IMG/VR virus record: IMGVR_UViG_3300013233_000118
Location: 1 to 39,216 of that record
Source of the DNA: a virus
Length of the DNA: 39,216 nt
Strand: one strand, 5' to 3'
Shown: piece after piece, positions 3,942 through 39,216 of the stretch
Position numbering within the stretch: the first letter of the stretch is position 1
Layout: the number at the start of each line of letters is the position of its first letter
Position numbers and translations under genes: made by a program
The notes under the pieces: model-generated
Told to the model about the DNA's origin: nothing
Database searches by the model: none
What the model saw: only the letters and a program-made list of their open reading frames with translations

Positions 3942-4048
3942 CAATAGCCCGCTTTATCTCAGAGTAGCACTGACGCTGCTTTCATATGCGTAACGCAGCT
4001 TCCAGCCCTGGCCGATACCCACACTCATAGGCTACGGCTTCGGTGAAT

Positions 4049-17356: not shown

Positions 17357-19675
17357 ATGAATAACGCTTTAACCAAATCAGATATTGCCGACTGGGCAGC
17401 GGTAGCCAAACAGTCCATCCGAATAGCCGATGCACTGGGTGGTATAGCCATCCCGGTTCACACGGTTGTTAACGGACGCTGCTCATGTGGCAGCACGCAC
17501 ACAAAATCACCCAAGAGCCGAGGCAAGCACCCCGTCAGCCCAAGCTGGCAGAACAGTACCGAACTATGCGCGCTCGACCACCAGCGGATACTGGCCGGGG
17601 AGTTCAACGTCGGGTGCAGCGTTGGTGAGCGCGCGGTGCTGCTCGACTTCGATGGCGCGGAGGGTGTGGCCAAGTTGGACGAGTGGACAGAGCGCGGCCT
17701 GCCGCTGAGCGTACGTTGTACCACTGGGTCGGGTGGGCGACACGCCTACTTCACCCTCGCTGCATGCTGGCATGGCGTATTCCGCAATAGTGCCAGCAAA
17801 ATCGCGCCCGGCGTGGACGTTCGCGCCGTTGGCGGTCAGGCCGTCATGCCGCCGAGCCGCCACTATAGTGGGGGTGAATACACGTGGGACGACCCACATG
17901 CTGAGCCGGTCGAACTACCTGAGTGGTTCGTGCAGGAATTCATGGTCAAGTCACAAAAGCTGCATGTAGACGAGGTAGACACAACCGAGGGCATTAAGAT
18001 TAAGTACAGCGTCAACGCACCAGAGGACGTACTCCGTGTGACCCGTAAGATCGACCAGTGGGAAGTCACCAACTCCGAGTCCACCTGCCTACAGATCGGG
18101 TATTACTGCCGCGACCACGGGATCAGCGAAGACATGGCCGTTGGCATCGTGCTCGGCTCTGTTTGGAACGAAAAGTGCGACCCGCCTTGGGATGAGCCGG
18201 AGCTAAAGGCCAAACTACACAACGCATATAAGTATAGTAGCGGCAAGATGGGCGTTCGCAGCGTAACCGCCATGTACGAGGGCGGCGACAGCCTGCTGCC
18301 TGAGACACACAACCACCGCGTACTGCGCCAACGGTGCGGTGTATTGCGCGGCGAGTGGCTCGCCGATGTCAACAGCGCGTACTCCACATTGTTTGAGGGC
18401 AGCACCTTGTGGGTGGTGAGCTACGTCAACGGGGCGTTGCGGCGTATGCGCCCGGCAGACTGGCGGCTGAGTATGGCCGGTGTGCTGGTAGAGGGCGAGG
18501 GTAAGAATGGTGCTGCGGGTGCGCTGGGCGACGTGTGGTTCAAGCACCCACATACAGAGTGGTGCGCCGTTGGTATGTACCCACGTGTGAAGGACTGTCC
18601 ACCGAATGTGCTGAACACTTGGTGTGGTCTGCCCAAGAGCAAAGGCAAGGCAGTGGGCGGCGTGGCAGTTGGGTGCGAGAAGTTCAAATGGCACGTTCGG
18701 GAGAATATGTGCGCTGGCAACGCCGGGCAGTACGCGTGGATTATGAACTGGCTGGCGCACATGGTGCAGCGACCATGGGAGAAGCCCGGCACAGCCATCG
18801 TTCTGCGCAGTGAAAAGGAAGGTACCGGTAAGGGGCTGTTCGGCGAGTACATACGTCGTTTGGTAGGTGACGCACTTAGCTTCAAGACCAGCAATCCACA
18901 GGATATAGTCGGCACATTCAACGCGGGTATGGACGATAAGCTACTGGTGGTTGGCGATGAGATACTGTTCAAGGGAAACAAGCCCGCCACCGATGCTATC
19001 AAGAGCCTTATCACCGAACCAACCGTGAGCATTCGACGTATGCGCACTGACGCACAGGTTCGGCCAAGTTATGTGCGCGTGGTGCTAATCAGCAACCACG
19101 ATGCTGTTATGGACATTCGCAGGGGCGACGCTCGACGTATCACCGTTGTGGACATGGACTCCGCCAAGAGTTCAGCGGACTGGCTGGACGACGTTTGGGA
19201 CGAAATGTACAACGGCGGGGCTGATGCACTTCGTGAAGAGCTCTTGGCGTGGGACGTTGACTCGAAGCTTGTGCGCAGACCACACAAGGGCGCAGGGCTG
19301 GACAAGATGCGCACCGCGTCACTTGATCGTAACAGCGTAGAGGGTTGGCTGACTGACCAGTTGCTGGATGGGGGCGCATTAGATGGTGAGGCGTGTGAAG
19401 GTGAGGGCGTGGGTGTTACGTTCTACGGTGATGATGTTCTACTGTGCCGGTCAGGGGCATGCGTGGTTGGTCGGACACTGTACAGAATGTACGCCGATGA
19501 GACACGCGACCAGTACACCACGCAGCGTCAATTTATCCTCCGTGTGGTGCAGGTGCTTGGCGGGGAAACCAAGCCAGTGAAAGTCGGCGGGAAACTCATC
19601 CGAGCCATCGATTTTGGCGGTGTCGAGAGGGGCAGAAAAATGGCCGAGAAAATGCTCGGAAAAGGGCTGTTTTAA
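17357..19675 (+). CDS. PrimPol-helicase: bifunctional primase-polymerase with SF3-like helicase
   Basis: A 772-residue replication protein. The N-terminal PrimPol (archaeo-eukaryotic primase-like) domain shows LLDFDG (about 95-100, metal-binding Asp-x-Asp), SGGRHAYF (about 125-132, catalytic His) and GVDVRAVGGQAVMPPS (about 152-167). The C-terminal domain (about 450-620) has SEKEGTGKG (Walker A, about 485-493), LLVVGDE (Walker B, about 529-535) and VVLISNHD (sensor-like, about 575-582), typical of superfamily 3/DUF5906-type helicases. It should prime and unwind DNA for the family A polymerase. It is the only long gene transcribed rightward at this point. An array of repeated TGTAACC-core sites follows it, possibly its origin. 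Confidence 0.93.
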   Translation: MNNALTKSDIADWAAVAKQSIRIADALGGIAIPVHTVVNGRCSCGSTHTKSPKSRGKHPVSPSWQNSTELCALDHQRILAGEFNVGCSVGERAVLLDFDGAEGVAKLDEWTERGLPLSVRCTTGSGGRHAYFTLAACWHGVFRNSASKIAPGVDVRAVGGQAVMPPSRHYSGGEYTWDDPHAEPVELPEWFVQEFMVKSQKLHVDEVDTTEGIKIKYSVNAPEDVLRVTRKIDQWEVTNSESTCLQIGYYCRDHGISEDMAVGIVLGSVWNEKCDPPWDEPELKAKLHNAYKYSSGKMGVRSVTAMYEGGDSLLPETHNHRVLRQRCGVLRGEWLADVNSAYSTLFEGSTLWVVSYVNGALRRMRPADWRLSMAGVLVEGEGKNGAAGALGDVWFKHPHTEWCAVGMYPRVKDCPPNVLNTWCGLPKSKGKAVGGVAVGCEKFKWHVRENMCAGNAGQYAWIMNWLAHMVQRPWEKPGTAIVLRSEKEGTGKGLFGEYIRRLVGDALSFKTSNPQDIVGTFNAGMDDKLLVVGDEILFKGNKPATDAIKSLITEPTVSIRRMRTDAQVRPSYVRVVLISNHDAVMDIRRGDARRITVVDMDSAKSSADWLDDVWDEMYNGGADALREELLAWDVDSKLVRRPHKGAGLDKMRTASLDRNSVEGWLTDQLLDGGALDGEACEGEGVGVTFYGDDVLLCRSGACVVGRTLYRMYADETRDQYTTQRQFILRVVQVLGGETKPVKVGGKLIRAIDFGGVERGRKMAEKMLGKGLF

Positions 19676-20075
19676 TGACGGGAAAGAGGTTACAAAACGG
19701 TTACACTTCTTTTTTAAAAAGAAATGTAACCTTTAGTGCACAGATACTGCGCTGTTGGTAAGAGAACATATATACACAATACATGCTAACTGGAGGCTAG
19801 CGGGGTGTTCGAGGGATGCTAAAAAGAAGTGTAACTTTGGGAAGTGTAACCACGATGTGTATACCGGATGTGTAACCATGCTGATGCGTTGGTACCATTG
19901 GTGTGGGGGTCTGAATTTATGCCTCTGGTTATACTAGTTACACTTCTTTTATCTTCAAGCAAATCCAAAAAACAGGGTATATGGTGTTTCTGTATAAACT
20001 AAAGTTGAAAAGAAGTGTAACCTGTGCCTCACCACCCAATTGGGTGGTTTTGAAGCGAAGAAAAAAGGAGTGAAA
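19676..20075. other. 400-bp AT-rich gene-free region with repeat array (candidate origin)
   Basis: No convincing gene lies here; a 60-codon ORF at 19755-19937 is built from the repeats and is rejected. The region carries eight TGTAAC[C/T] cores, seven of them inside longer AAAAGAAGTGTAACC-like units, in both orientations. It separates the PrimPol-helicase gene from the small terminase gene. Confidence 0.7.
19688..20022. repeat. Iteron-like array of AAAAGAAGTGTAACC elements
   Basis: Cores (TGTAAC[C/T]) are at 19688-19694 (-), 19699-19705 (-), 19725-19731 (+), 19830-19836 (+), 19845-19851 (+), 19871-19877 (+), 19936-19942 (-) and 20016-20022 (+). Five carry the A-rich AAAAGAA flank in full. 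Two face each other to form a 33-bp near-perfect palindrome at 19699-19731 (16-base arms, one mismatch). Location and pattern fit replication iterons or operators. Confidence 0.85.
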
Positions 20076-20510
20076 ATGATCGATATTATTTGTGAATTAG
20101 TGGCGGAAGGAAAGTCGTTTGACGAGATAGCAAGAATGGACAAAATGATGCCGAAAAGAGAGATAATGAGATTGCTGAGAAGTGACAAAAGTTTTCAGGT
20201 GAAATTGTTTGCCGCGATGCAAACAATGCAGCTTGATAATTTCTCTCAGTTGATCGGAATAGCAGACGGCTCGACAAGGGAAGATGTTCAGGTGGCGAAG
20301 CTTCAGATTGAGACCCGCAAGTGGTGCATGGAAAGAGTGGCAAAAGAATTGTTTAGCCCGAAAGTGTTAGAATCTAACGAATCGAAAAGCACTGCACTCG
20401 AAGATGAAAAGTTGTTCGCTGAATTAAACGAAAGAATGGCAAAACGCCGCAAGCTTGCAAACGTGGTTGAGCTGTTACCTGCGGATACACCACACAAAGC
20501 CACAGGATAG
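20076..20510 (+). CDS. Probable small terminase subunit
   Basis: A 144-residue helical protein. Residues 1-35 (IICELVAEGKSFDEIARMDK) form an HTH-like DNA-binding region. The central helices (DNFSQLIGIADGSTREDVQV, AKLQIETRKWCMERVAKELF) match Sf6-type small terminases, which recognise the packaging site and form a ring. AAGGAG lies 7 bases before the ATG at 20076; an earlier in-frame ATG at 20040 lacks a good site. The large terminase gene is 1.3 kb downstream, separated by a leftward gene, which is unusual but not rare. It encodes Leu-Glu-Ser-Asn from a perfect palindrome at 20366-20378. Confidence 0.75.
   Translation: MIDIICELVAEGKSFDEIARMDKMMPKREIMRLLRSDKSFQVKLFAAMQTMQLDNFSQLIGIADGSTREDVQVAKLQIETRKWCMERVAKELFSPKVLESNESKSTALEDEKLFAELNERMAKRRKLANVVELLPADTPHKATG
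20366..20378. repeat. 13-bp palindrome element, site 6 (perfect)
   Basis: GTTAGAATCTAAC lies inside the small terminase gene, reading Leu-Glu-Ser-Asn on the rightward strand. Confidence 0.85.
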
Positions 20511-37108: not shown

Positions 37109-39216
37109 ATGGCCTCAAGAGATGTTGTAACATTAAATGAGACTTCCTCACGGCTGGAAGTCGCACAGGCAGGTGACACATATAATTTGCCCCGTAATAC
37201 CACGGTGCAGGGCGAACTTACCGCTGATAAATTAAGCGTCGGAGGTAACACAGCTTCCGCAACTGGACGGGTTAAAGTCAATGCCATTGAGTTCTCCGAT
37301 GGATCTACTGCGCTTACAGCTACAGCCGCATCAGGCTCACAGGACATTAACAGTGTTCTTAGTGTTGGTAACACCACACTAAAACGTGCAACAGTTGGAG
37401 GCATCGACTTCGCAGCAGTCTCTGCCCTAATGCTCCCCATTACTATCGTTGACTATGCCGCCTTCGACAACTCACGCGACCCAGTATGGATTGATAAATG
37501 CAGTGATAAAAGCTGGGAGAATGAAGGAAGGGCTACCGCGTATGTCGGCGAATATCCGGACTTAGCCGCTGCGGCACTGGCTAACGGCATGGCAGCAACG
37601 ACCGATTACTACTACAACACAACAGATAATCAGTTCCACGCACTGGCTAGTCCGGCCATTGACGCTGTTGTAAACCGTGCTGGTAGCCGTAAGTTTCCTA
37701 TGCGTGGCTTTGTTACTGCTGAAGCCAACCGTGTGATCGTCTGGGATACTACGGGCGGTAAGCCTACGATGTGGATGGCATTCGATGGCTCTAGCAGCTC
37801 GATGCTCACAAAAGACGGGGCACACCCATTTACATCTATAGTGTTTAAGGACGGCTTCCTTGCAGTCGGGTCGGGGGGCTTTGGCCTACAGACTGTCAAT
37901 TTCAACGCTGATAGTGGAACTATCTATCGGACAACCCATACCCCAGCGTTTGAGGGTAAGTATATCGGCAATATAGCGCAGCGTAACGACGGTATAGGCT
38001 TTACTGATGGACAACTCACGATTGTGAGCAACACAGTCAATTCAGTAGCCATCACCTACCTACCTGACGCACCTCTGGATGAGTATGGCATGCGAGTGCC
38101 TACGATATTGATTTCCGAAGGGCTAAGTGGTGGTGCCGGTGCATTTCAAATAATCAAAGACGATGGTACGATAATTACTGCAAGCCATTTATATGGCCCA
38201 CGATCTTTTACCGTAGTGGACAATGGGCGCAGATTAATGGCTGAATCCGTAGGCCACCAAAGAATCTACGGAGACATTAGAGCCCTGAGTAATAACTTCA
38301 CACCTTTGAAGAGCTACTATCAAGGGTCGATACCTGCAATCTGGCCTGTAGGTCTATCAGTAACGTCAATGATTTCTAATCAGAGAACTATACTGATGGG
38401 TCACTCAGGTGGCATTTCAGGACTCGTTGAAAATCCAGCAAGTCTTACAGCCGGAATGGTATGTAATATCACTGACACCTACAACACAGGCTATCAAGTC
38501 GGTGACATCCGCGCAGCAATCGGTTACGACTCTCTTGGCGTATTAGCCGATAAGTCCGTCAAAGCATTATCCCCTGTTGAAGTGGGCACGCTGACTAAGA
38601 CCACGCAGGCGGGTGGGCGCACTATCGTTAGTGGATTCTCTGGGGCTAACTATATTCAGATACCAACCAATGCGGCGTTTAATAACCTTGGCACTGGCGA
38701 CTTCTCTATTATTATGAGCGGGGTTAAGTGGGGAACCCAAAATAGAGGTCGGGAACTATTATCAGTAGGTGATGGAGTCAGCGCAGGCTCCTTGCTGGTT
38801 GAAATGTGGGCCCCAAACAGGCCAGCGATTTATGTGTATACTACAGGATGGGCTTTGATGGTCATGTCTGATGTTACTTTCACTGATTCTGCAGCGCATG
38901 TACTTGAATTCAAGCGTACTGGAGTATTAGTCGAATGTGTTGTTGATGGCGTGGTAGTTGGCACGGGAACAAACGGAAATACCATTAGTAATACGACAGG
39001 CTATCTGCGAGTAGGAGGAGCACAACATACTTCGGCACCGTGGCCAGGTGGCTCATTCGAAGGCTACGTTCGCATATCAGCTACAGCACCAAGCGCAGAG
39101 CAGTCCAAGTTCATGGCAGCACAGGAGAACGCACTCAACGGTGGTAAGCCTTGCCTGTTATCCAGTAGCGCGAACGTATCAGACGTAGAGTACAACGCAG
39201 AGCATGATGTGTATTA
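37109..39216 (+). CDS. Tail fibre/tailspike protein, N-terminal part (continues at base 1)
   Basis: The frame starts at ATG 37109 (AGGAG 6 bases upstream) and is open to the window end, joining base 240 of the left end in frame for a total of about 841 residues. Residues 1-110 are Ala/Thr/Ser/Val-rich and could be the attachment domain. Residues about 115-330 hold beta-propeller-like strands (VIVWDTTGGKPTMWMAFDGS, FKDGFLAVGSGGFGLQTVNF). Residues from about 500 carry a LamG/concanavalin-like domain (FSGANYIQIPTNAAFNNLGT, then LEFKRTGVLVECVVDGVVVG). Proteins with this layout are receptor-binding fibres. The gene lies between the ejection proteins and the lysis cassette. Confidence 0.85.
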   Translation, partial: MASRDVVTLNETSSRLEVAQAGDTYNLPRNTTVQGELTADKLSVGGNTASATGRVKVNAIEFSDGSTALTATAASGSQDINSVLSVGNTTLKRATVGGIDFAAVSALMLPITIVDYAAFDNSRDPVWIDKCSDKSWENEGRATAYVGEYPDLAAAALANGMAATTDYYYNTTDNQFHALASPAIDAVVNRAGSRKFPMRGFVTAEANRVIVWDTTGGKPTMWMAFDGSSSSMLTKDGAHPFTSIVFKDGFLAVGSGGFGLQTVNFNADSGTIYRTTHTPAFEGKYIGNIAQRNDGIGFTDGQLTIVSNTVNSVAITYLPDAPLDEYGMRVPTILISEGLSGGAGAFQIIKDDGTIITASHLYGPRSFTVVDNGRRLMAESVGHQRIYGDIRALSNNFTPLKSYYQGSIPAIWPVGLSVTSMISNQRTILMGHSGGISGLVENPASLTAGMVCNITDTYNTGYQVGDIRAAIGYDSLGVLADKSVKALSPVEVGTLTKTTQAGGRTIVSGFSGANYIQIPTNAAFNNLGTGDFSIIMSGVKWGTQNRGRELLSVGDGVSAGSLLVEMWAPNRPAIYVYTTGWALMVMSDVTFTDSAAHVLEFKRTGVLVECVVDGVVVGTGTNGNTISNTTGYLRVGGAQHTSAPWPGGSFEGYVRISATAPSAEQSKFMAAQENALNGGKPCLLSSSANVSDVEYNAEHDVY
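38978..39216. repeat. Terminal redundancy, right copy
   Basis: Identical to 1-239. The fibre frame runs through the junction without interruption. Confidence 0.95.

Follow-up and report, generated by a model that had tools for sequence, protein, structure and literature searches.

The window, a stretch of 39,216 nucleotides covering the whole of viral record IMGVR_UViG_3300013233_000118, carries a 400-bp intergenic gap between a primase-helicase gene and a small terminase gene (terS). The gap contains an array of repeats with a TGTAAC core, a hairpin and an AT-rich stretch, arranged as follows.

17357-19675, plus strand: PrimPol-DUF5906 primase-helicase gene, 772 aa, proposed initiator
19253-19672, plus strand: winged-helix-like C-terminal domain (residues 633-772) of the proposed initiator, thought of here as the candidate reader of the repeats
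19676-20075, no strand: intergenic gap with array, hairpin and AT-rich stretch, proposed replication origin
19688-19694, minus strand: repeat copy 1 (core 19689-19694), from the core scan
19699-19731, no strand: near-palindrome (hairpin) made of copies 2 (19700, minus) and 3 (19725, plus), from fold analysis
19820-19836, plus strand: repeat copy 4 (core 19830-19835)
19840-19851, plus strand: repeat copy 5 (core 19845-19850)
19866-19877, plus strand: repeat copy 6 (core 19871-19876)
19926-19950, minus strand: tandem pair of degenerate GGTTATAC (19926-19933) and copy 7 (core 19937-19942), a pair also found in relatives L133, L214 and L215
19951-20007, no strand: proposed site of melting, an AT-rich stretch (68.4% AT) flanked by inverted copies
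20008-20022, plus strand: repeat copy 8 (AAAAGAAGTGTAACC), 53 bp before terS
20076-20510, plus strand: Sf6-type terS (PF20901), with a different TerS in L215 and L214

A sequence-only reading had placed eight TGTAAC[C/T] cores, in both orientations, between 19688 and 20022, and we located all eight, at 19689(-), 19700(-), 19725(+), 19830(+), 19845(+), 19871(+), 19937(-) and 20016(+). The base after the core is C in six copies and T in two, and the AAAAGAA flank that the same reading saw on most cores is carried by five of the eight (four exact AAAAGAAGTGTAAC, one AAAAGAAATGTAAC). The hexamer itself is not enriched genome-wide (22 occurrences against 18 expected); the array holds eight within 335 bp, whereas 200 Markov-simulated versions of the window never gave more than four per 335 bp. 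Across the window, the 14-mer AAAAGAAGTGTAAC is present four times, in the array only, and in 500 shuffles of the array region no 14-mer of any sequence reached a count above two. An exact search for this 14-mer across viral contigs gave at least 118 stretches and was uninformative, with one scattered match each among the matches listed.

The 33-bp near-palindrome described earlier is confirmed, with 19-nt arms (19696-19714 and 19716-19734) that are 89% complementary and a single-strand fold better than that of shuffles (z = -3.5). Core-to-core spacing is irregular (11, 25, 105, 15, 26, 66 and 79 bp). The first copy lies 13 bp downstream of the primase stop, and the array ends at 20022, so that its claimed adjacency to the terS ATG (20076) stands, at a recomputed distance of 53 rather than 54 bp. 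The AT-rich gap had been given as 335 bp, which is the span of the array; the full gap measures 400 bp, and its AT-richness is borne out (59.8% versus 45.5% genome-wide), with 19951-20007 having the lowest stability in the gap and falling in the top 0.12% of the genome. As the earlier reading held, no gene explains the region: only ORFs of up to 60 aa lie wholly inside the gap, and an ORF at 19955-20188(-) overlaps terS. Rfam and tRNA searches gave no match, nor did a palindrome scan.

The upstream gene encodes a Prim-Pol domain (PF09250) and a DUF5906 SF3/D5-type helicase (PF19263) in one chain, and its product is a member of the PrimPol-SF3 helicase group (pRN1/NrS-1 type). The modelled protein matches NrS-1 CTR (Foldseek E=3.4e-16) and the SaPI5 primase-helicase. 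AlphaFold2 models of the C-terminal domain show two helices followed by a beta hairpin, and its structural matches are mostly winged-helix DNA binders, with archaeal Orc1 on DNA first, at Z up to 4.0 only; Foldseek with this domain alone gave no significant match. The C-terminal domains of SaPI5 and P4 alpha were absent among the match rows for this domain, which is uninformative either way. From these models we propose that the domain is winged-helix-like and predict that it reads the repeats.

Arrays in close and distant relatives

Portal alignments yielded the related loci L133, L214, L215 and L216. No relatives of the window were found at the DNA level among phage genomes, in protein scans with PrimPol only or TerS only, or in scans of genome-contig collections. 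L133 has a PrimPol 57% and a TerS 41% identical to those of the window, and an array of GCGTTACC/GGTAACGC in the same gap. L215 has flanks homologous to those of the window (ATPase 86%, minus-strand gene 56%, TerL 86%); its primase is a VapE (PF05272, E=1.5e-50) with no significant match to the window PrimPol, its array consists of GTTATACC/GGTATAACA, and its TerS is phrog_4102, unlike that of the window. Between homologous flanks, primase, array motif and TerS have all been replaced. L214 begins at the extreme end of the primase, where its tail GKGRRAWFPDAG resembles the GRGKRAWFKDE of L215; its array is of the L215 type and its TerS is 50% identical to that of L215. As a separate observation, about 134 bp present in the window are missing from the L133 TerL gene near position 4043 and its frame is broken there, by a deletion or an assembly error.

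Conservation of the array in relatives had been suggested as a check, and the outcome is positive for its place and layout, which are kept in L133, L214 and L215 with a differing motif. In the window and these three loci (4/4), the first three copies, two followed by an inverted third and including the hairpin, all fall in the first 50 bp or so downstream of the primase stop. After the hairpin the shared order is a tandem pair, an AT-rich stretch (present in 4/4) and a last copy on the plus strand, 36-60 bp upstream of terS; in three of these loci only one copy makes up the repeat set to the right of the AT-rich stretch. The least stable 40-mer of L133, L214 and L215 falls in each case inside the same gap. 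Orientation strings are <<>>>><> for the window (the degenerate 19926 copy, which completes the tandem pair, is omitted), <<>><<> for L133, <<><<> for L215 and <<><<<>> for L214, and carry some judgement because motif patterns were picked separately per locus. A second hairpin, of TGTGA...TCACA type, lies in the AT-rich stretch of L133 (1702-1728), L214 (262-286) and L215 (4195-4210), with no clear counterpart in the window.

A wider scan with the conserved helicase stretch yielded 33 loci, mostly at 30-39% identity. With the window family included, an array lies within 450 bp 3' of the primase at 11 of 38 loci and within 450 bp 5' at none of the 36 testable (Fisher p=0.0004). The other 27 of the 38 primase relatives are without such an array, and the association is therefore not universal. 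Arrays directly 3' of the primase were found in L221 (GGTGACA, nine copies), L222 (GTGACCA, six), L224 (ACCTGGGAC, six), L235 (AACTAGAC), L237 (CAATCCGAC, six) and L249 (GTGAAGTA), and in the named phages Kosakonia phage Kc259 (ATGTTCC, nine copies) and Brevibacillus phage Emery (GGTAACA-type); an array in this place was absent in Javan100, Bacteroides phage BT2 and Bordetella phage CN2. The Kc259 array (L253 3437-3730) comprises eleven ATGTTC copies, eight of them ATGTTCCA, on both sides of an AT-rich stretch; it comes immediately after a VapE-type primase gene whose annotation reads hypothetical protein. In L221 (7010-7090) and L224 (4245-4285), an alternating CA/CG-rich tract between the iteron sets replaces the AT-rich one, and might take on an alternative structure that unwinds easily.

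A candidate replication origin and its alternatives

We consider it very likely, with a probability of roughly 0.78, that the gap at 19676-20075 is the replication origin used by the upstream primase-helicase, which we infer to bind the gap and initiate there. This reading is supported because the place and layout of the array stay constant while its motif changes in three relatives, and because arrays also adjoin related primase-helicases on their 3' side in genomes that are otherwise unrelated. The protein would bind the TGTAACC repeats through its C-terminal winged-helix domain, and its SF3 helicase rings would assemble on the array and melt the AT-rich stretch at 19951-20007 between inverted copies, possibly assisted by the hairpin at 19699-19731. 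The N-terminal PrimPol domain would then synthesise the first primers, and the family-A polymerase of the phage would extend them, probably bidirectionally.

Base composition is consistent with this position in one respect: the G-over-C skew of the plus strand at fourfold sites rises across the array in four loci, a weak signal (pooled p=0.0008; p=0.07-0.21 singly). Bulk GC skew, proposed earlier as a check, has its minimum near 17 kb, away from the array, and was uninformative; it tracks gene direction, and we rejected it as an origin marker on account of this confounding. The sequence-only reading had favoured an iteron-type origin beside an initiator. Comparison supports the origin, whereas the evenly spaced, one-direction iterons of plasmids are not borne out, and a classic iteron plasmid origin is rejected given copies in both orientations at irregular spacings of 11-105 bp.

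A broader, tentative idea is that initiator, array and terS are exchanged together as a cassette, with both replication and packaging starting at the array; we regard this as doubtful. If it were true, phages of one group could switch replication and packaging specificity in a single recombination step.

A packaging (pac) function, in which TerS binds the repeats and packaging starts beside terS, appears distinctly unlikely. It would fit the short distance from the last copy to terS, which is also the next gene in L133, L214, L215, L221 and L224, and the replacement of the L215 TerS along with its array. However, at six of the 11 array loci (L222, L237, L235, L249, Kc259 and Emery) the array follows the primase and the next gene is other than terS; L235 has a TerS of the window's own Pfam family (PF20901) on the opposite side of the primase; and the array motifs of L221 and L224 differ despite TerS proteins that are 65% identical. 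Across the loci compared, the array thus follows the primase-helicase and not TerS, given the 3' bias and these six loci. Packaging or a terS operator is unlikely as the shared function because arrays adjoin primase-helicases where TerS is elsewhere; packaging could still hold in the window clade, because terS follows the array there, and for the same reason TerS may bind the array in that clade and in L221 and L224. Either role is less likely than an origin.

An operator, at which a regulator or the primase itself would bind the repeats and control transcription of terS or the region, is highly improbable. The repeats do lie directly upstream of terS, and a hairpin followed by four T (20034-20051) could terminate the primase transcript. 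Against this, at least eight copies over 335 bp, together with the AT-rich core and hairpin, are more than an operator usually has, other genes come after such arrays at distant loci, and a sigma-70-type scan found no strong promoter in the gap.

There is likewise little chance that the 33-bp palindrome is the sole working site, as in pRN1, with the remaining repeats accessory: the hairpin directly follows the primase stop in 4/4 (window, L133, L214, L215), and a pRN1 stem-loop sets a precedent that has also been proposed for Bordetella phage BIP-1 (PMC4234260), but the tandem pair and last copy are conserved as well, and the distant L249 and Kc259 arrays consist of direct repeats on either side of an AT-rich stretch. 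Because the hairpin arms are made of the repeat motif, hairpin and repeats are difficult to tell apart.

Comparison with known systems

By analogy, the window layout is of the SaPI/PICI, P4 and pRN1 kind: inverted sets flank an AT-rich stretch, a hairpin is present, and both lie 3' of the gene for the proposed initiator. In PICIs the origin directly follows the initiator gene on its 3' side, and an AT-rich region with iteron sets on both sides is always present (PMC6092414); SaPI Rep and Cch2 use the C-terminal domain to recognise repeats that lie just downstream of their own genes (PMC7581432). The window array likewise sits immediately 3' of its initiator gene, and its AT-rich stretch lies between the minus pair (19926-19950) and the plus copy (20008-20022). 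In contrast to SaPI/PICI elements, the window phage carries virion and DNA polymerase genes of its own; its primase-helicase is an AEP PrimPol-DUF5906 protein, and its array has an extra hairpin and irregular spacing. Elsewhere in the record are genes for an SNF2-type helicase, a family-A DNA polymerase, a Cas4-like exonuclease and TerL, and for the portal/head-tail adaptor, major head protein and tail protein; with its TerL, structural and polymerase genes, the window was rejected as a PICI satellite, which would rely on a helper phage for virion genes. Relatives of its structural proteins are distant and podovirus-type, for example in Saffermanviridae and Zobellviridae.

P4 alpha joins primase, helicase and a winged-helix repeat-binding domain in one protein, as summarised in PMC4234260. 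By that description the window protein is alike, with its winged helix predicted, whereas the P4 alpha primase is TOPRIM-type. The stem-loop used by the pRN1 protein, which is of PrimPol-SF3-winged-helix type, lies 54 bp beyond the 3' end of the gene for that protein (PMC4234260). The pRN1 protein ORF904 and the window protein share PrimPol, SF3 helicase and winged helix (predicted here) in one chain, a hairpin and an origin placed right after the gene; the pRN1 stem-loop spans 100 bp and is without iterons, versus a 33-bp hairpin and at least eight repeats in the window. Among solved structures, NrS-1 PrimPol is the closest to the helicase part of the window protein (6k9c, 6lrb), whereas the origin suggested for NrS-1 consists of two 8-nt recognition sites in the middle of the genome (PMC7102993) and not of an array that follows the gene.

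Satellites, P4 and pRN1 already offer examples of an origin 3' of a primase-helicase gene, an arrangement known mainly from satellites such as SaPIs and P4. Within the open-licence literature, phage iteron arrays that include a hairpin and follow a PrimPol-DUF5906 gene on its 3' side appear to be new, although earlier single cases may exist in older subscription journals; within the same scope it also appears new that initiator, array and terS are replaced together among close relatives. The presence of arrays 3' of PrimPol-DUF5906 and VapE genes, including those of Kc259 and Emery, suggests a common origin type recognisable from sequence. The motif differences among close relatives and the L215 primase replacement offer ready pairs for matching protein domain to repeat, and the natural replacement of initiator, array and terS makes origin specificity testable.

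A neighbouring gene and the record ends

Between terS and terL lies a conserved minus-strand gene (20654-21442) for which a family search gave no match; it is 56-58% identical in L133 and L215 and has a repeated N-terminal AVESA tract. The record ends are identical over 239 bp (1-239 and 38978-39216), and the right copy lies inside a tail-fibre-like ORF (37109 onwards). Because these 239 bp are common to both ends, the genome is probably closed or circularly permuted, with a length of 38,977 bp.
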